Source of the DNA: Candidatus Hadarchaeales archaeon
GTDB taxonomy: Archaea; Hadarchaeota; Hadarchaeia; Hadarchaeales; WYZ-LMO6
Length of the DNA stretch: 64,000 nucleotides
Assembly (NCBI GenBank): GCA_038736355.1
Contig: JAVYML010000003.1
Location: 248,001 to 312,000, forward strand
Direction: 5' to 3'
The notes under the pieces were generated by a model, which saw only the letters and a program-made list of their open reading frames with translations, made no database searches and had not been told where the DNA came from. Shown piece after piece: positions 21,098 through 26,573 of the stretch. Position 1 is the first letter of the stretch; the number at the start of each line of letters is the position of its first letter. The position numbers and the translations under genes are program-made.

Positions 21098-22144
21098 TCA
21101 GAGGGTCTCCAACGCTGACAAACTTGCCGAGCTAACGTAGAGAGCTTCCTCCCTCTCCAATCCTTCTTCTATCTTTTTCAGCACCTCGTCCTTCTCTCCA
21201 GGAAAGCGATAGCCCTCATAGCTCTGGTCAAAGATCCAACGGGGGCCGGCGGAAGTTAGATAAAAGGGATTGGCAAAGTGGTCAAAACAAAGTCTACCAG
21301 TAAACTCCAGCTCTTCCACCAGGAGTTTCAGTTCCCTTAACTCCCCATGGGGGGTTTGAAGCCTGAAGTCTCCTCTCCTCCATTCCTCGAAGAGGGGGGT
21401 ACCCTTGAGGGGGACTAGTCTCCTTACCCTCACGAATTCGGGATTCACCTCGTTGAGAACCCTCGCCGTGTTCCTAGCGTGTTCTTTCCATCCGTCCTGT
21501 CCTCCCAATCCCAGGATGTAGTAGAGGGAAAGCTCCAGTCCAGCCTCTTTCGCCTTCCTCCCACCTTCCACCATTTCCTGGGGGGTCAATCCTTTGTTCA
21601 TCCTCCTGAGCACCTCTTCATCCCCGCTCTCCAGTCCCACATGAAGCCTGGAGAGTCCCGCCTCCCTGAGGGTCCTCAACTCTTCCACCTTCTTCTTGAA
21701 GAGGGTTCTCCCCCTCGTGTAACAAGTGATCCTTTCCATCTCCCCCAACCTTTTCCTCACTTCCTCCAGGATTTCCACCAGCTTTGGGGTAGGCATGAAT
21801 AGAACGTCTGCATCCTGGAGGAAAACCGTCCTACTCCCCGAGAAAAACCACATAAGGAAGTTGTGCAGACCATCTCCGTTCTCTAAAGAAAACCCCTCCC
21901 ATATCTTCCCCCTCTCCAGCATCTCCACCATTTTCTCCATGCTAAGTATTTCCTCCTTCACCTCCTCCACCGTCCTCAAAGAAAATTTCCCCCTGCCATA
22001 GGGTTTACCATAACAAAACTTGCAAAGGGACCAAGGACAATTCCTCACCACCCTCAAAAGGAGAGAACAACTTCCCCCTTCTGAAGGCGGACGGATGGGG
22101 CCAAGCTCATGGCGAAAACCCTTGGGTTCTTTCCATTGCTTCAT
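21098..22144 (-). CDS. Radical SAM protein with CX4CX2C cluster motif
   Basis: A 348-residue radical SAM protein. The cluster-binding cysteines are in RNCPWSLCKFCYG near 38-46, spaced CX4CX2C rather than the usual CX3CX2C. A family of archaeal and bacterial proteins with an NCPWNxCxFC signature has the same spacing. SAM-binding regions continue with LHVGLESGDEEVLRRMNKG near 175. The product is unknown. I start it at ATG 22144, which overlaps the end of the deacetylase-like gene by 4 bp; the frame stays open to 22234 inside that gene. Confidence 0.78.
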   Translation of the reverse strand: MKQWKEPKGFRHELGPIRPPSEGGSCSLLLRVVRNCPWSLCKFCYGKPYGRGKFSLRTVEEVKEEILSMEKMVEMLERGKIWEGFSLENGDGLHNFLMWFFSGSRTVFLQDADVLFMPTPKLVEILEEVRKRLGEMERITCYTRGRTLFKKKVEELRTLREAGLSRLHVGLESGDEEVLRRMNKGLTPQEMVEGGRKAKEAGLELSLYYILGLGGQDGWKEHARNTARVLNEVNPEFVRVRRLVPLKGTPLFEEWRRGDFRLQTPHGELRELKLLVEELEFTGRLCFDHFANPFYLTSAGPRWIFDQSYEGYRFPGEKDEVLKKIEEGLEREEALYVSSASLSALETL

Positions 22145-22884
22145 TTGAAACCCTCCAGGAAAGCCCTGACGTTCTTCCCCAACACCGAATGGTTGTACCC
22201 TCCCTCCAGCACCCCGTACCTTTTTCCCCCGCACTTTTCTTCGGCCGCTTCCCTTATCATCCTACCGATTTCTCGGTAGTCTGAGGTGGTGAGGGTTCCG
22301 CCCCAATCTTCTTCATGATTGTCGAAGCCCGCGGAAACCCCTACCAAATCGTAATCCCTTTTGGCTAGAAAAGAGGCTATGCCGTGCAAAATGTCTTCCC
22401 TACTTCCCTCAGCGTGATGGTAGAAGACCTTCTTGGAACCGGAAAAGATGGCGGCCGTACCGTCCCCATAATGAAGATCGAAGTCTACGATCACGGCTTT
22501 TTCTATTTTGCCTGTCACCAGTAACTTTTGAAGGGAAAGGGCCAAGTTGTTGAAATAACAGAAACCCCAAAAACTGTTTGGTCCAGCATGATGACCCGGA
22601 GGTCTGATGAGGGCAAAGGAGGGTTCACCCTGAAAAGCCAAAGCAGAGGCTTTCAAGGCCCCTCCGGCTGCCAAAAGGGCCAAGGAATAAACTGAAGGTA
22701 TGGCCTTCACCCTTTCAAGATGAGAGGGTGTGTGAACGAGGAGGATATCCTCCTCCCTAGCTCGCTCGGGCTCCAAGAACTCAAAGTCCTTCAGCTCTTT
22801 TAGAATGGCCTCCATCCTACCAGGGGCAGAGGCAGGATCGGAGGAATAAACTGTCTTGAAGTCTTCACTGTAGACAATTTTCAT
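22141..22884 (-). CDS. Histone deacetylase/acetylpolyamine amidohydrolase superfamily protein
   Basis: A 247-residue HDAC-superfamily zinc hydrolase. Conserved elements are RPPGHHAGPNSFWGFCYFNN (near 92, active-site His pair), VIVDFDLHYGDGTAAIF (near 127, zinc ligands Asp and His), and VSAGFDNHEEDWGG (near 178, third zinc ligand Asp). It is shorter than most (300-350), lacking part of the C-terminus but not the active site. Substrates could be acetylated proteins or polyamines. The ATG at 22884 begins MKIVYSEDF; the frame extends to 23166 through the divergent peptidase and is rejected there. Confidence 0.85.
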   Translation of the reverse strand: MKIVYSEDFKTVYSSDPASAPGRMEAILKELKDFEFLEPERAREEDILLVHTPSHLERVKAIPSVYSLALLAAGGALKASALAFQGEPSFALIRPPGHHAGPNSFWGFCYFNNLALSLQKLLVTGKIEKAVIVDFDLHYGDGTAAIFSGSKKVFYHHAEGSREDILHGIASFLAKRDYDLVGVSAGFDNHEEDWGGTLTTSDYREIGRMIREAAEEKCGGKRYGVLEGGYNHSVLGKNVRAFLEGFK

Positions 22885-22945
22885 TCCATATAATTCATCG
22901 CCAAAAGGAAAAAGTTTTTTGAGGTTGTGGAAAAAAGAAAAAGAT

Positions 22946-23992
22946 ATGTCCGGAATAGGGGAGCTTTTGGAAAGACTGTCCAACGCCGTGGGTGTTTCGG
23001 GTAGGGAGGAAGAAGTGGCCGAACTCGTAAAAGCCGAGCTCCAACCCTTCGTGGATGAGATAAGGAGAGATACCATGGGTAACCTGATAGGGATAAAAAG
23101 GGGCTCCGAACCTTCCTGCATGCTGGCCGCCCACATGGATGAAATAGGCCTGATGGTCAAACACATCGATGAAAGGGGGTTTATAAGGTTCGTCCCCTTG
23201 GGTGGTTGGTTCGATCAAAGCCTTCTCAACGAGAGGGTGGTCTTCAAAACGAAGAAAGGTCCCGTCTATGGTGTAATAGGGTCCAAACCCCCCCATCTGT
23301 TGGAAGAGGAGGAGAGGAAGAAACCCGTGAAGATAGAAAACATGTTCATAGACATAGGAGCCAAGAGTGAAGCGGAAGTGAAGGAGGCGGGTATAAGGAT
23401 AGGCTCCGTGGCCGCCTTAGACCGGCAAGTAAGGATTCTCCTCAACGGAAGGGTTACGGGCAAAGCCTTCGACAACAGGGCTGGACTGGCGGTGATGATC
23501 GAGGCCCTGAAGAACACCAAAACCACCTCCACAGTTTACGCCGTGGGGACCGTACAGGAGGAGGTGGGGCTGAAGGGAGCCAGGACCTCCGCTTTTGGTC
23601 TAGAACCAACCGTGGCCATAGCCCTAGATGTATCCCTGCCGGGAGATTATCCAGGAATGGAAAAAAAGGACTCCGCGTTGGAAATGGGCAAGGGACCCTC
23701 CATTACGGTTACAGACGCCAGCGGACGTGGAATCATCGTTTCGGAGAAGGTCCTCCACTGGCTTACAGAAACTGCTGAGAAATACGGAATTCCCTATCAG
23801 CTGGATGTGGCCAAGGGAGGAACCACCGATGCCACCGCCATTTCCCTCACGAAGGCTGGCATACCCACCGGTGTGATAAGTGTTCCTACCCGTTATCTCC
23901 ACTCCGGGGTGGAAACTCTGGATCTCTCGGATCTCAAATACGCAAGTGAACTCGTGGCTAGAGCCTTGGAAACGGCCAAGGACTACTTTTAG
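22946..23992 (+). CDS. M42-family metallo-aminopeptidase
   Basis: A 348-residue M42 peptidase of the TET/endoglucanase-like group. Metal and catalytic residues are visible in LAAHMDEIGL (His near 65), KAFDNRAGLAV (bridging Asp near 180), TVQEEVGLKGA (Glu pair near 211), ALDVSLPGDYPG (Asp) and TRYLHSGVE (final His near 317). Such dodecameric enzymes trim peptides released by the proteasome; exact specificity is not clear. ATG 22946 is preceded by AAAAAGAT. It is divergent from the deacetylase-like gene across 61 bp. Confidence 0.92.
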   Translation: MSGIGELLERLSNAVGVSGREEEVAELVKAELQPFVDEIRRDTMGNLIGIKRGSEPSCMLAAHMDEIGLMVKHIDERGFIRFVPLGGWFDQSLLNERVVFKTKKGPVYGVIGSKPPHLLEEEERKKPVKIENMFIDIGAKSEAEVKEAGIRIGSVAALDRQVRILLNGRVTGKAFDNRAGLAVMIEALKNTKTTSTVYAVGTVQEEVGLKGARTSAFGLEPTVAIALDVSLPGDYPGMEKKDSALEMGKGPSITVTDASGRGIIVSEKVLHWLTETAEKYGIPYQLDVAKGGTTDATAISLTKAGIPTGVISVPTRYLHSGVETLDLSDLKYASELVARALETAKDYF

Positions 23993-24537
23993 AGCTTGAT
24001 CTTGACGTTGTCGGAAACTAAGCTGAGCTTAAGTTCCTCAGCCACAATATAGGTATTCCGCATCTGGACCAACCAAGTTAAGGGTGGGTACATGTGCGAG
24101 TTGACCCTCTCACCCGTTTGGAGGCCCACCAATCCTCCCAGGAGGGGTATTCCCTGCTCTACGTAGGCTCCATTTATTATGATTTGGCTCAAGGGTAGCA
24201 AGTTCAAGACTAGGATATCCGTTTTCATGTACTTTGCTTTGAGATAGAAGTTCTCTGCATCAACCTCTTTCAATTCCATCCACATACCGTTCACATATAT
24301 CCTTACGTTTTCAAAGCGAATGGAAGGGGAAGTGATTACCGTAACATTTTCGTTTTCATAGCCTACCATATGGAGTTCGCTGTAAGTATAGGAATAGAGA
24401 GCCCAGATCTCGAAGGTTTTGGGGGAATTGCCTGAAAGGGGGAGAGCTAGGGAAAGAGAAAGCAAGAGCAATACACTTACCACTATCCCAAGCTTGAAAA
24501 AAGAGAAAGGCTGGCGTCTGTTTTTAGGACGTCTCAA
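23989..24537 (-). CDS. Exported or membrane-anchored protein, last gene of a four-gene membrane cassette
   Basis: I do not recognise this 182-residue protein with certainty. A basic N-terminus (MRRPKNRRQ) precedes one hydrophobic segment (14-33, FKLGIVVSVLLLLSLSLAL), consistent with a signal anchor. The rest is beta-rich, with VTVITSPSIRFENVRIYV and AENFYLKAKYMKTDILVL repeats of alternating hydrophobic residues, resembling the neighbouring DUF6230-like protein. TTG 24537 is the start, with GGTGAGG about 8 bp upstream; it overlaps the preceding gene by 14 bp, so translation is coupled. Confidence 0.6.
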   Translation of the reverse strand: MRRPKNRRQPFSFFKLGIVVSVLLLLSLSLALPLSGNSPKTFEIWALYSYTYSELHMVGYENENVTVITSPSIRFENVRIYVNGMWMELKEVDAENFYLKAKYMKTDILVLNLLPLSQIIINGAYVEQGIPLLGGLVGLQTGERVNSHMYPPLTWLVQMRNTYIVAEELKLSLVSDNVKIKL

Positions 24538-25018
24538 GCCTCACCACCATGTTGCCGAGGTCTAGGGAGCCCACTACCATCTCCGTTACCCAAGCACTAA
24601 CGTCATTCACCTTGATGGTGTCGGCAGTCACTGCGAAGCTCCTGCCACCATAGGGACCCACTCTCTGGTTGGTGGCCTTCATGCTTCCGGCTGAGAAGGT
24701 ATCACACTTCATCAGTACTCCTGTCGAAACAGCCTGTGGACTTTCTATAATAGCTCTGATCTTCAAGCCGCCCAGGCTCATCTCCTTTACTATTTGGAGA
24801 TTGGAGATCGTGGCACTACCCAATTCCTGGAAGATCTTTCCTCCATAGTTGTCCATAGTGCCCACGTACATGTTGAGATTGCTCCCGTCGATACTGCCTG
24901 CTTTGAGTTCAAAGTCGTCCATGGGCAAAGCCAAACCCACTCCAGTCACCGCAGAGAAAACTACGACGCCCACCACAGACGCCAGCCCAGCCGCCGCCAT
25001 TTTCCCGAACCCTTCCAT
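24524..25018 (-). CDS. DUF6230-like secreted or anchored beta-rich protein
   Basis: A 164-residue protein with an N-terminal hydrophobic segment (MAAAGLASVVGVVVFSAVTG, within 7-30) and a beta-rich exterior with many Ser, Thr, Gly and Asn residues: AGSIDGSNLNMYVGTM, GSATISNLQIVKEM and GSMKATNQRVGPYGG. From memory, this matches the pattern of actinobacterial DUF6230 proteins (a signal anchor, an AxxLxGxG segment, then SATISNL). The gene lies 38 bp after a protein whose C-terminus resembles DUF6114, the usual partner of DUF6230. GGAGGGAAG precedes the ATG. Function is unknown. Confidence 0.6.
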   Translation of the reverse strand: MEGFGKMAAAGLASVVGVVVFSAVTGVGLALPMDDFELKAGSIDGSNLNMYVGTMDNYGGKIFQELGSATISNLQIVKEMSLGGLKIRAIIESPQAVSTGVLMKCDTFSAGSMKATNQRVGPYGGRSFAVTADTIKVNDVSAWVTEMVVGSLDLGNMVVRLETS

Positions 25019-25056
25019 TTCTCTTCCCTCCTTTTCATTTTGTCATAGGAATTTTC

Positions 25057-26067
25057 CTATGACCCTGAAAGAGGCCTCCATGCATATGCATGACCCCCAG
25101 CTGCTACACATAGGAGGGAGCCCAGAAAGGCTCCTCCCAACGTTCCTACCCAGGAAAGGGCAGCCATGATTACTAGGAAAAGACCCACTATTTTACAGGA
25201 CTCCCTCCTTGGAAACATGAGCATGATGGCAGCCATAGCCAAGCACGAGCTCCCCAAAAACATTCCCCAGAAAACAAGAGAGGTATACATGTATATGGGG
25301 AAGAACTTTAGAGGCACATACAGAATGGCCAGACCTCCCAACACTGCACAATAAATGGCCCAGAAGGGATACCTTTCCCTTAAGGAATCCCAACGTGGTT
25401 TGAGCTTGGGTAAATGACCCAACAGGGGAGGAAGGAAAAGGGCCAGAACTACATATGGGAGGAGGGGGATGGCCCACATGATAGACAACAAGATAATGAG
25501 GGGAGGAGCGGGCAAGAATCCCCCTATCGAGAAATCCAGATAGAAGAGGAAGGCTAAGAGGAGGGAAATACCTATGAGGGTTTGAGTTACCACCCTACCG
25601 GTGGAAGCCAAGTCCTTTTGGATATAATCCATCACCACCAAGCCGATGAAAGCCAAGAGAAGGGTGGTCAGAAGAAAAGTCACGGCAAGGGTGAAGGAAA
25701 GGAGGGAATGGGTAATGTTATGATACCAAACGGTTATCGCACAACCGGCCAGGAGGATGGGAAAGATCAAATGCTTTTTGTTCCAGAAATTGAGGAAGCC
25801 CATACCTATTGTAATGGCCACGGAATTCCATTTCTCCTTCAGGTCTAGATGTGGGAGATGAAGATGGGGAAGGGAGGGAAGGCGGAGACGCCTTCCCCCA
25901 GCGTGCTCAGGGGTTGGGAGGCCCTCTGGGGAGGAGGGAGAAGCCTCTACGGTGGAACTTTCTATTCCCGGTTCGGATGTTTTCTCCACACTGGGGATTC
26001 CGCCGTCGCGATCGGTTCCACCACTCAACAGGGTTTTGAGAGATTCCGTTGCTTCCAGGATTCCCAC
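25057..26067 (-). CDS. Polytopic membrane protein with DUF6114-like C-terminus
   Basis: A 336-residue protein. Residues 1-75 are polar, rich in Ser, Pro and Glu (disordered), with an LPSLPHLHLPHLD repeat. About seven hydrophobic segments follow between 85 and 330. The last part (about 230-333), from RERYPFWAIYCAVLGGL through LGGAFLGSLLCVAAGGHAYAW to RP, strongly recalls actinobacterial DUF6114 proteins (R-x-PFW...GG-FLG-LLG...WxP). The upstream helices are not part of that family, so this is a fusion or an extended form. GTG 26067 is the start with a GGGGGG box upstream. It is co-directional with its neighbours. Confidence 0.62.
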   Translation of the reverse strand: MGILEATESLKTLLSGGTDRDGGIPSVEKTSEPGIESSTVEASPSSPEGLPTPEHAGGRRLRLPSLPHLHLPHLDLKEKWNSVAITIGMGFLNFWNKKHLIFPILLAGCAITVWYHNITHSLLSFTLAVTFLLTTLLLAFIGLVVMDYIQKDLASTGRVVTQTLIGISLLLAFLFYLDFSIGGFLPAPPLIILLSIMWAIPLLPYVVLALFLPPLLGHLPKLKPRWDSLRERYPFWAIYCAVLGGLAILYVPLKFFPIYMYTSLVFWGMFLGSSCLAMAAIMLMFPRRESCKIVGLFLVIMAALSWVGTLGGAFLGSLLCVAAGGHAYAWRPLSGS

Positions 26068-26081
26068 CCGGATCCCCCCCT

Positions 26082-26411
26082 TTATTTGGAGGCTCCTTCC
26101 AACAACTTCTTTATCTCTTCCACGCTCCTGTCAAGTGCCGAGAGGAGTGCCCCACTGACGTCTTGGGGAGTCGTTTTTTCAAGGGTTTCCTCTATCATTT
26201 TCTCCAATTTCTCTTCCATCCTCTTCTTCGTCCTCTGGACTACCGAGGCCTTCAGTTCACCCATCTTGAGTTTGTCCAGTCCCTCCAAGATCGATTGCCT
26301 CAAAGTGGGCTCTATCAGCCCCTTCAGTTCTTCGGAAAGGCTTTGTTGTAGCTCCTTCCTTATTAATTCCGAGAGTTCGTCTTTCTCCATTTTCGTTCTA
26401 AGCTCTTCCAC
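26082..26411 (-). CDS. Helical protein of unknown function, first gene of the membrane cassette
   Basis: A 109-residue, highly charged, all-helical protein without a membrane segment. Heptad-like leucines run through KDELSELIRKELQQSLSEEL (10-29) and RMEEKLEKMIEETLEK (63-78), suggesting a coiled coil. It starts at GTG 26411 after GGGGGGGAA; an in-frame ATG at 26390 is possible. The DUF6114-like gene follows 14 bp downstream, so both are likely on one mRNA. No family recognised. Confidence 0.55.
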   Translation of the reverse strand: MEELRTKMEKDELSELIRKELQQSLSEELKGLIEPTLRQSILEGLDKLKMGELKASVVQRTKKRMEEKLEKMIEETLEKTTPQDVSGALLSALDRSVEEIKKLLEGASK

Positions 26412-26573
26412 TTCCCCCCCATTTTTTTCTTTTTCAGGATACCCTAATATAAAGTTATGGTTTCAGGAAGAAAAAAAGGATACACAGTGTAACGATTTCG
26501 TAACACAGTGGAATTTTTAAAAACAGTCCATTTGGAGGGAAAATTAATACTCCATGCATCTCAAAGAAAATGG

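Follow-up and report, generated by a model that had tools for sequence, protein, structure and literature searches.

A four-gene archaeal cassette with homologs of the actinobacterial DUF6230–DUF6114 pair: a candidate envelope module

Why does an archaeal genome encode, in adjacent genes, relatives of two protein families that are paired in Actinobacteria? The question is raised by a four-gene cassette in a 64,000-nucleotide stretch of DNA from a Candidatus Hadarchaeales archaeon (contig JAVYML010000003.1, positions 248,001 to 312,000), which we refer to as the window. An earlier note, made from the letters alone, had described four open reading frames (ORFs) on the minus strand as a cassette resembling the actinobacterial DUF6230–DUF6114 pair, and had proposed a cell-surface or membrane organising system shared across domains. 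All four ORFs lie where it placed them (Table 1). Neither DUF6230 nor DUF6114 has a studied function, and in the literature we searched DUF6230 is mentioned once, in passing. Our analysis partly supports the earlier interpretation: the two central proteins are homologs of the actinobacterial pair, and we consider it about an even call that the cassette represents, in an archaeon, an envelope module so far known from Actinobacteria, in which a DUF6114 platform would carry anchored extracytoplasmic beta proteins.

The cassette and its two central proteins

The same four genes, in the same order and all single-copy orthologs, are found in the four genomes of one archaeal family that covers two genera (G000–G003, where G000 is the genome of the window and G003 represents the sister genus). 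G002, a third genome of the window's genus, carries all four genes even in a fragmented assembly. The intergenic gaps of 14, 38 and -14 nt make the cassette operon-like. The ratio of nonsynonymous to synonymous substitutions (dN/dS), computed between two same-genus genomes, is 0.04–0.12 for the cassette genes, with 0.04 for the 109-residue coiled-coil protein. The ORFs are real and all four are under purifying selection. Moreover, the contig encodes archaeal-type CODH/ACS subunits and a sulfhydrogenase and is therefore archaeal. The two outer proteins match no known family in Pfam or NCBIfam; for the coiled-coil protein, Pfam returned only sub-threshold coiled-coil noise.

The C-terminus of the polytopic protein matches DUF6114 (PF19609) with an E-value of 7.5e-11 and 43.1 bits, above the curated Pfam cut-off of 27.9 bits, and its orthologs score 46.8–51 bits in a genome search. 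This bears out the DUF6114-like C-terminus of the earlier note. In the window protein this region is seen as hydropathy segments, and four helices were modelled for an actinobacterial relative only, which AlphaFold2 (AF2) predicts to be a four-helix membrane bundle. Fold matches of DUF6114 to copper storage proteins (Z 11-12) and p22phox (Z 9) were taken merely as the common four-helix-bundle arrangement. The N-terminal membrane half is shared with a paralog in G000 (34% identity over residues 86-332). At its very N-terminus the polytopic protein carries a conserved motif, GILEATESLKTLL, and a look-alike, GLEKAVENLLRSL, is found at the opposite, C-terminal end of paralogous DUF6114 proteins; both were picked out by eye and without statistics.

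The neighbouring 164-residue protein reaches 24.2 bits (E 4.6e-5) against DUF6230 (PF19741), just below the curated cut-off of 27.5 bits. Its G003 ortholog, which is 50% identical to it, scores 41.1 bits (E 2.7e-10) and thus exceeds the cut-off. Profile-profile comparisons with actinobacterial DUF6230 gave probabilities of 90.4% (E 1.4e-6) for the archaeal orthologs and 94.5% (E 7.6e-8) for paralogs. Because the window protein falls below the cut-off while its ortholog and the profile-profile comparisons are positive, we call it DUF6230-like, a homolog and not a formal member of the family. The alignment with actinobacterial DUF6230 is colinear and full-length, at a pairwise identity of about 16-25%. 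AF2 predicts an all-beta domain with strands at residues 36-52, 62-82, 85-109, 128-153 and 158-163; the predicted local distance difference test score (pLDDT) lies mostly at 80-93 for residues 31-164, whereas the anchor scores low. The earlier note had named two checks, a profile match for both proteins and the presence of the pair in related archaea. The first came out directly for DUF6114 and through the ortholog and profile-profile comparison for DUF6230; the second came out in each of the family's four genomes.

Table 1. Features of the cassette, in positions of the window
Feature	Positions	Strand	Remarks
Putative TATA-like element CTTTATATTAGGG	26440..26456	-	Precedes the first gene, within the short stretch between it and a divergent HD-domain gene
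Coiled-coil protein, 109 aa	26082..26411	-	First gene; cytosolic; single-copy ortholog in 4/4 genomes
Polytopic protein, 336 aa	25057..26067	-	N-terminal amphipathic motif, P/S-rich linker, extra N-terminal membrane half, C-terminal DUF6114
Conserved N-terminal motif GILEATESLKTLL of the polytopic protein	26017..26067	-	By eye, without statistics
N-terminal membrane half of the polytopic protein, about residues 86-222	25402..25812	-	Archaeal-specific; absent from actinobacterial DUF6114
DUF6114 domain, residues 228-331	25075..25386	-	PF19609; putatively four-span; PFW...GG..LGS...AWRP
DUF6230-like protein, 164 aa	24524..25018	-	N-terminal membrane anchor, then predicted extracytoplasmic all-beta domain
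DUF6230-matching region, residues 35-162	24533..24916	-	PF19741
Beta-rich protein, 182 aa	23989..24537	-	Signal-anchored; TTG start; 14 nt overlap with the DUF6230-like gene

The pair in Actinobacteria and among archaea

DUF6230 was found in 19 of 296 sampled genomes of the Actinomycetota. At the 27 loci of this random phylum sample, DUF6114 lies directly beside DUF6230 in every case, a count that rests on loci retrieved with Pfam's own DUF6230 model. Other searches yielded 86 loci, 84 of which have DUF6114 beside DUF6230, and both misses are at contig ends. A DUF6230 consensus, which scored 205 bits when checked against Pfam, served only to probe for matches and to fill one row of the probe alignment A1; it was also in the seed of the first search profile. 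The actinobacterial pairing, which the earlier note had asserted without numbers, is thus near-obligate, and together with its recurrence in an archaeal family it makes a functional partnership likely.

A pair annotated in Rhodococcus (Rhodococcus sp. 008, WP_058228187.1 and WP_231917480.1) illustrates the likeness: both families are present, adjacent and on one strand. The archaeal and actinobacterial proteins of the DUF6230 type share a single N-terminal anchor followed by a predicted extracytoplasmic beta domain, and those of the DUF6114 type share a PFW start and an AWxP end and may have four spans in common. Unlike the actinobacterial pair, the archaeal version has a DUF6114 protein with an N-terminal membrane half and adds the genes for the coiled-coil and 182-residue proteins. 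Of the 86 actinobacterial loci, 22 also encode a third beta domain that is probably extracytoplasmic: in 13 it is fused to the C-terminus of DUF6114 behind a further hydrophobic segment, and in 9 it is encoded nearby. These domains form one family (profile comparison 95.6%), and since they are fused to DUF6114 or lie beside it, DUF6114 is repeatedly accompanied by outside beta domains.

Some loci have neighbours that we record for themselves. At L171:7119-9773 (+), near a DUF6230-DUF6114 pair, an 884-residue protein combines a signal sequence with transglycosylase SLT and peptidase M23 domains; its beta region looks DUF6230-like by eye, and an LPNTG-type repeat protein is encoded between it and the pair. 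At L177:5942-7852 (+), in an actinobacterium, the gene immediately after that for DUF6114 fuses a squalene/phytoene synthase domain with one of undecaprenyl diphosphate synthase. DUF6230 proteins were in the past often annotated as 'putative cholesterol esterase'. Sven_0933 of Streptomyces venezuelae, which bears this label and may be such a protein, was induced 11.7-fold on nitrogen starvation (PMC3087709).

The archaeal comparison set consisted of 394 genomes. Searched with the DUF6230 profile, it gave the four family members, of which only that of G003 exceeds the cut-off, and three weak partial matches in one other genus (G154, G171 and G240, E about 0.005), which are probably due to chance. 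A DUF6230-like search profile made in this analysis (A5) produced full-length matches in two genomes of another archaeal family (G164, E 1.5e-9; G232, E 1.3e-7); these have no Pfam support and are a lead only. DUF6114-like four-span proteins above the cut-off are more widespread in archaea (e.g., G128, G047, G307 and G366). They were considered as further homes of the cassette, but those examined are small, stand-alone four-span proteins without a DUF6230 profile match. A tblastn search of plasmids, with either the DUF6114 consensus or the window protein as query, gave no match. Judged by these profile matches, the DUF6230–DUF6114 pair is restricted within archaea to one family. In each of the two protein trees a single branch sets off the archaeal sequences (support 85/95 and 89/76, subject to long-branch warnings), which fits joint inheritance without giving its direction or age.

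The cassette has a diverged counterpart elsewhere in G000 and G001 (L052 and L051). This second cassette encodes a three-span protein of 294 residues that ends in a beta tail, a DUF6114 protein (E 2e-7) and a DUF6230-like protein, and in G000 also a 157-residue relative of the 182-residue protein (hhalign 59%, E 9e-5). That DUF6114 and a DUF6230-like protein are again combined counts for a module.

A candidate envelope module and its alternatives

In the module that we propose, the multi-span DUF6114 protein would be the platform for one or more DUF6230-type beta-sheet proteins, which would hang outside the cell by their N-terminal membrane anchors. The archaeal platform would be enlarged by its second membrane half and probably tied via its tail to the cytosolic coiled-coil protein, and the same operon would make a second anchored beta protein, that of 182 residues. 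Such a complex may hold, mature or display its outer beta proteins on the surface of the cell. Besides the pairing and the conserved gene order, the signal peptidase joined to DUF6114 in G001 (see below) speaks for it, as does a signal peptidase of the bacterial type that adjoins a tandem DUF6230-DUF6114 array in actinobacterium G458. Two cysteines, invariant in 85 of 85 actinobacterial DUF6230 sequences, fit an extracytoplasmic disulfide. Membrane topology and the all-beta fold are predicted. Since the central membrane and surface proteins are homologous to the actinobacterial pair, one uncharacterised envelope module would span two domains of life. The 'shared across domains' of the earlier note accordingly holds as a two-component homology, supported by profile matches for both proteins and by the pair in all four genomes; the outer two genes are additions of the archaeal version, and neither has a demonstrated counterpart in Actinobacteria. 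Of the proposed 'cell-surface or membrane organising system', an envelope role would fit the topology and a signal-peptidase fusion described below, and the organising activity found no support.

Several observations weigh against this module. No relationship is detectable between the 182-residue protein and the actinobacterial third domain: an LLPL...PPLT likeness noticed by eye came with an hhalign probability of only 0.1-1.1%, and we rejected the match. The gene order is reversed: DUF6230 precedes DUF6114 in Actinobacteria and follows it in each of the four archaeal genomes. The invariant cysteine pair of actinobacterial DUF6230 is missing from the archaeal DUF6230-like proteins. The model of the DUF6230-like protein has no convincing structural match, none being better than E 0.014 or Z 3.5, which is no proof of a new fold. 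The links to signal peptidases are single cases (1 of the 27 sampled actinobacterial loci), and mutual binding of the cassette proteins is something we infer.

Among the alternatives, the handling of hydrophobic substrates or lipids fares best, although we consider it unlikely. The ligands of the outer beta proteins would then be fatty acids, isoprenoids or alkanes, exchanged with the membrane via DUF6114; in the archaeon this would serve long-chain alkane oxidation. In line with this, the window carries beta-oxidation genes, and within the archaeal order MCR-alpha-type genes occur only in the cassette-bearing family, in three of its four genomes. This co-occurrence, however, concerns one clade and hence one event, and in G001, which has the cassette, no MCR alpha was detected. 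In the two archaea of another family with A5 matches (L193:3351-5535 (-) and L194:3378-5352 (-)), the matching gene, for a DUF6230-like anchored beta protein, overlaps an AMP-binding acyl-CoA synthetase gene at the latter's end. The actinobacterial third domain has a weak match to LptC (Z 2.6). In Actinobacteria, FadB and TetR genes lie beside some of the loci, and squalene/phytoene synthase and an MPAB/Lcp oxygenase beside others, but the immediate neighbours of the pairs include no dominant lipid family. Lipid genes lie near 7 of 27 sampled loci versus 2 of 33 controls (nominal p 0.04); because five of the seven represent one synteny and the gene panel was picked post hoc, we do not claim an enrichment.

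Clearly less probable, and in our view doubtful, is a surface filament or matrix of the TasA or archaeal bundling-pilus type, in which exported beta subunits would be matured by a SipW-like peptidase and DUF6114 would act as assembly factor. What speaks for it comes from the second cassette: its G001 version unites DUF6114 and a signal peptidase of the archaeal/SipW type (TIGR02228, E 5.2e-19) in one fusion protein, and its G000 version has a SipW-like and a DUF5305 protein nearby. The cassette of the window itself, in contrast, lacks a peptidase gene, and its proteins have no SipW-cognate or TasA-type match in Pfam or NCBIfam up to E 10; the absence of a TasA-like jelly-roll among the fold matches listed is weak evidence in the same direction. 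Close to the second cassette of G000, on its contig C1, lies the gene of a 633-residue protein (L052:10309-12210 (-)) that contains an archaeal/SipW-type signal peptidase domain in its interior and whose C-terminal part resembles, by eye, a SipW-type tagged surface protein; the DUF5305 protein adjoining it is encoded at L052:9215-10336 (-).

That the two domains of life share no more than a four-helix bundle and a small beta protein of a generic kind, paired by convergence or chance in an archaeal operon of unrelated function, could draw on the DUF6114-like four-span proteins without DUF6230 in several other archaea and on the low identity of the DUF6230-like sequences, but it is very improbable given two independent profile matches in adjacent genes of all four genomes, a DUF6230 ortholog above the curated cut-off, a colinear full-length alignment and archaeal sequences on one branch side in both trees.

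Genomic neighbourhood and host

Upstream of the cassette in G003, at L050:3228-4390 (+), are two more unclassified genes, for an anchored beta-rich and a multi-span protein. In the window, the ORF at 22141-23166 (-) encodes a histone-deacetylase domain; its longest reading overlaps the start of a divergent M42 peptidase gene, and its true start is probably further inside.

The genomes of the family measure 1.2-1.3 Mb with about 50-52% GC. MCR-alpha-type (alkyl-CoM reductase) genes are present in G000, G002 and G003, and none was found in the other searched genomes of the order and phylum (G004-G027). Two matches to the MCR-alpha C-terminal domain occur in G000 (C4:188-568 and C1:55388-55762), and two each in G002 and G003. 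According to PMC10811742, Acr is restricted within Hadarchaeota to Ca. Cerberiarchaeaceae (GTDB WYZ-LMO6). The MCR-alpha, CODH/ACS and beta-oxidation genes match that family, which suggests that it is the host family and that the bearers of the cassette are probably oil-eating Hadarchaeota. The association of cassette and Acr concerns one clade and cannot alone support a functional link, and the passages of PMC10811742 on surface and uptake that we consulted contain no such envelope system. It is a rather remote prospect that Actinobacteria and alkane-oxidising Hadarchaeota share a hitherto unrecognised class of envelope machine, whose outer beta proteins on DUF6114 would bind lipids or hydrophobic substrates and carry them over the cell boundary; in the archaeon this would be a part of growth on long-chain alkanes.

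The archaeal four-gene version, the peptidase-fused second cassette and the quantified near-obligate pairing appear to be undescribed in the literature searched, which is a partial set. The comparison of the archaeal with the actinobacterial version separates a conserved core from lineage additions in two families without a studied function. If the host indeed belongs to Ca. Cerberiarchaeaceae, the cassette would also be a candidate for an envelope trait linked to an archaeal lifestyle of long-chain alkane oxidation.

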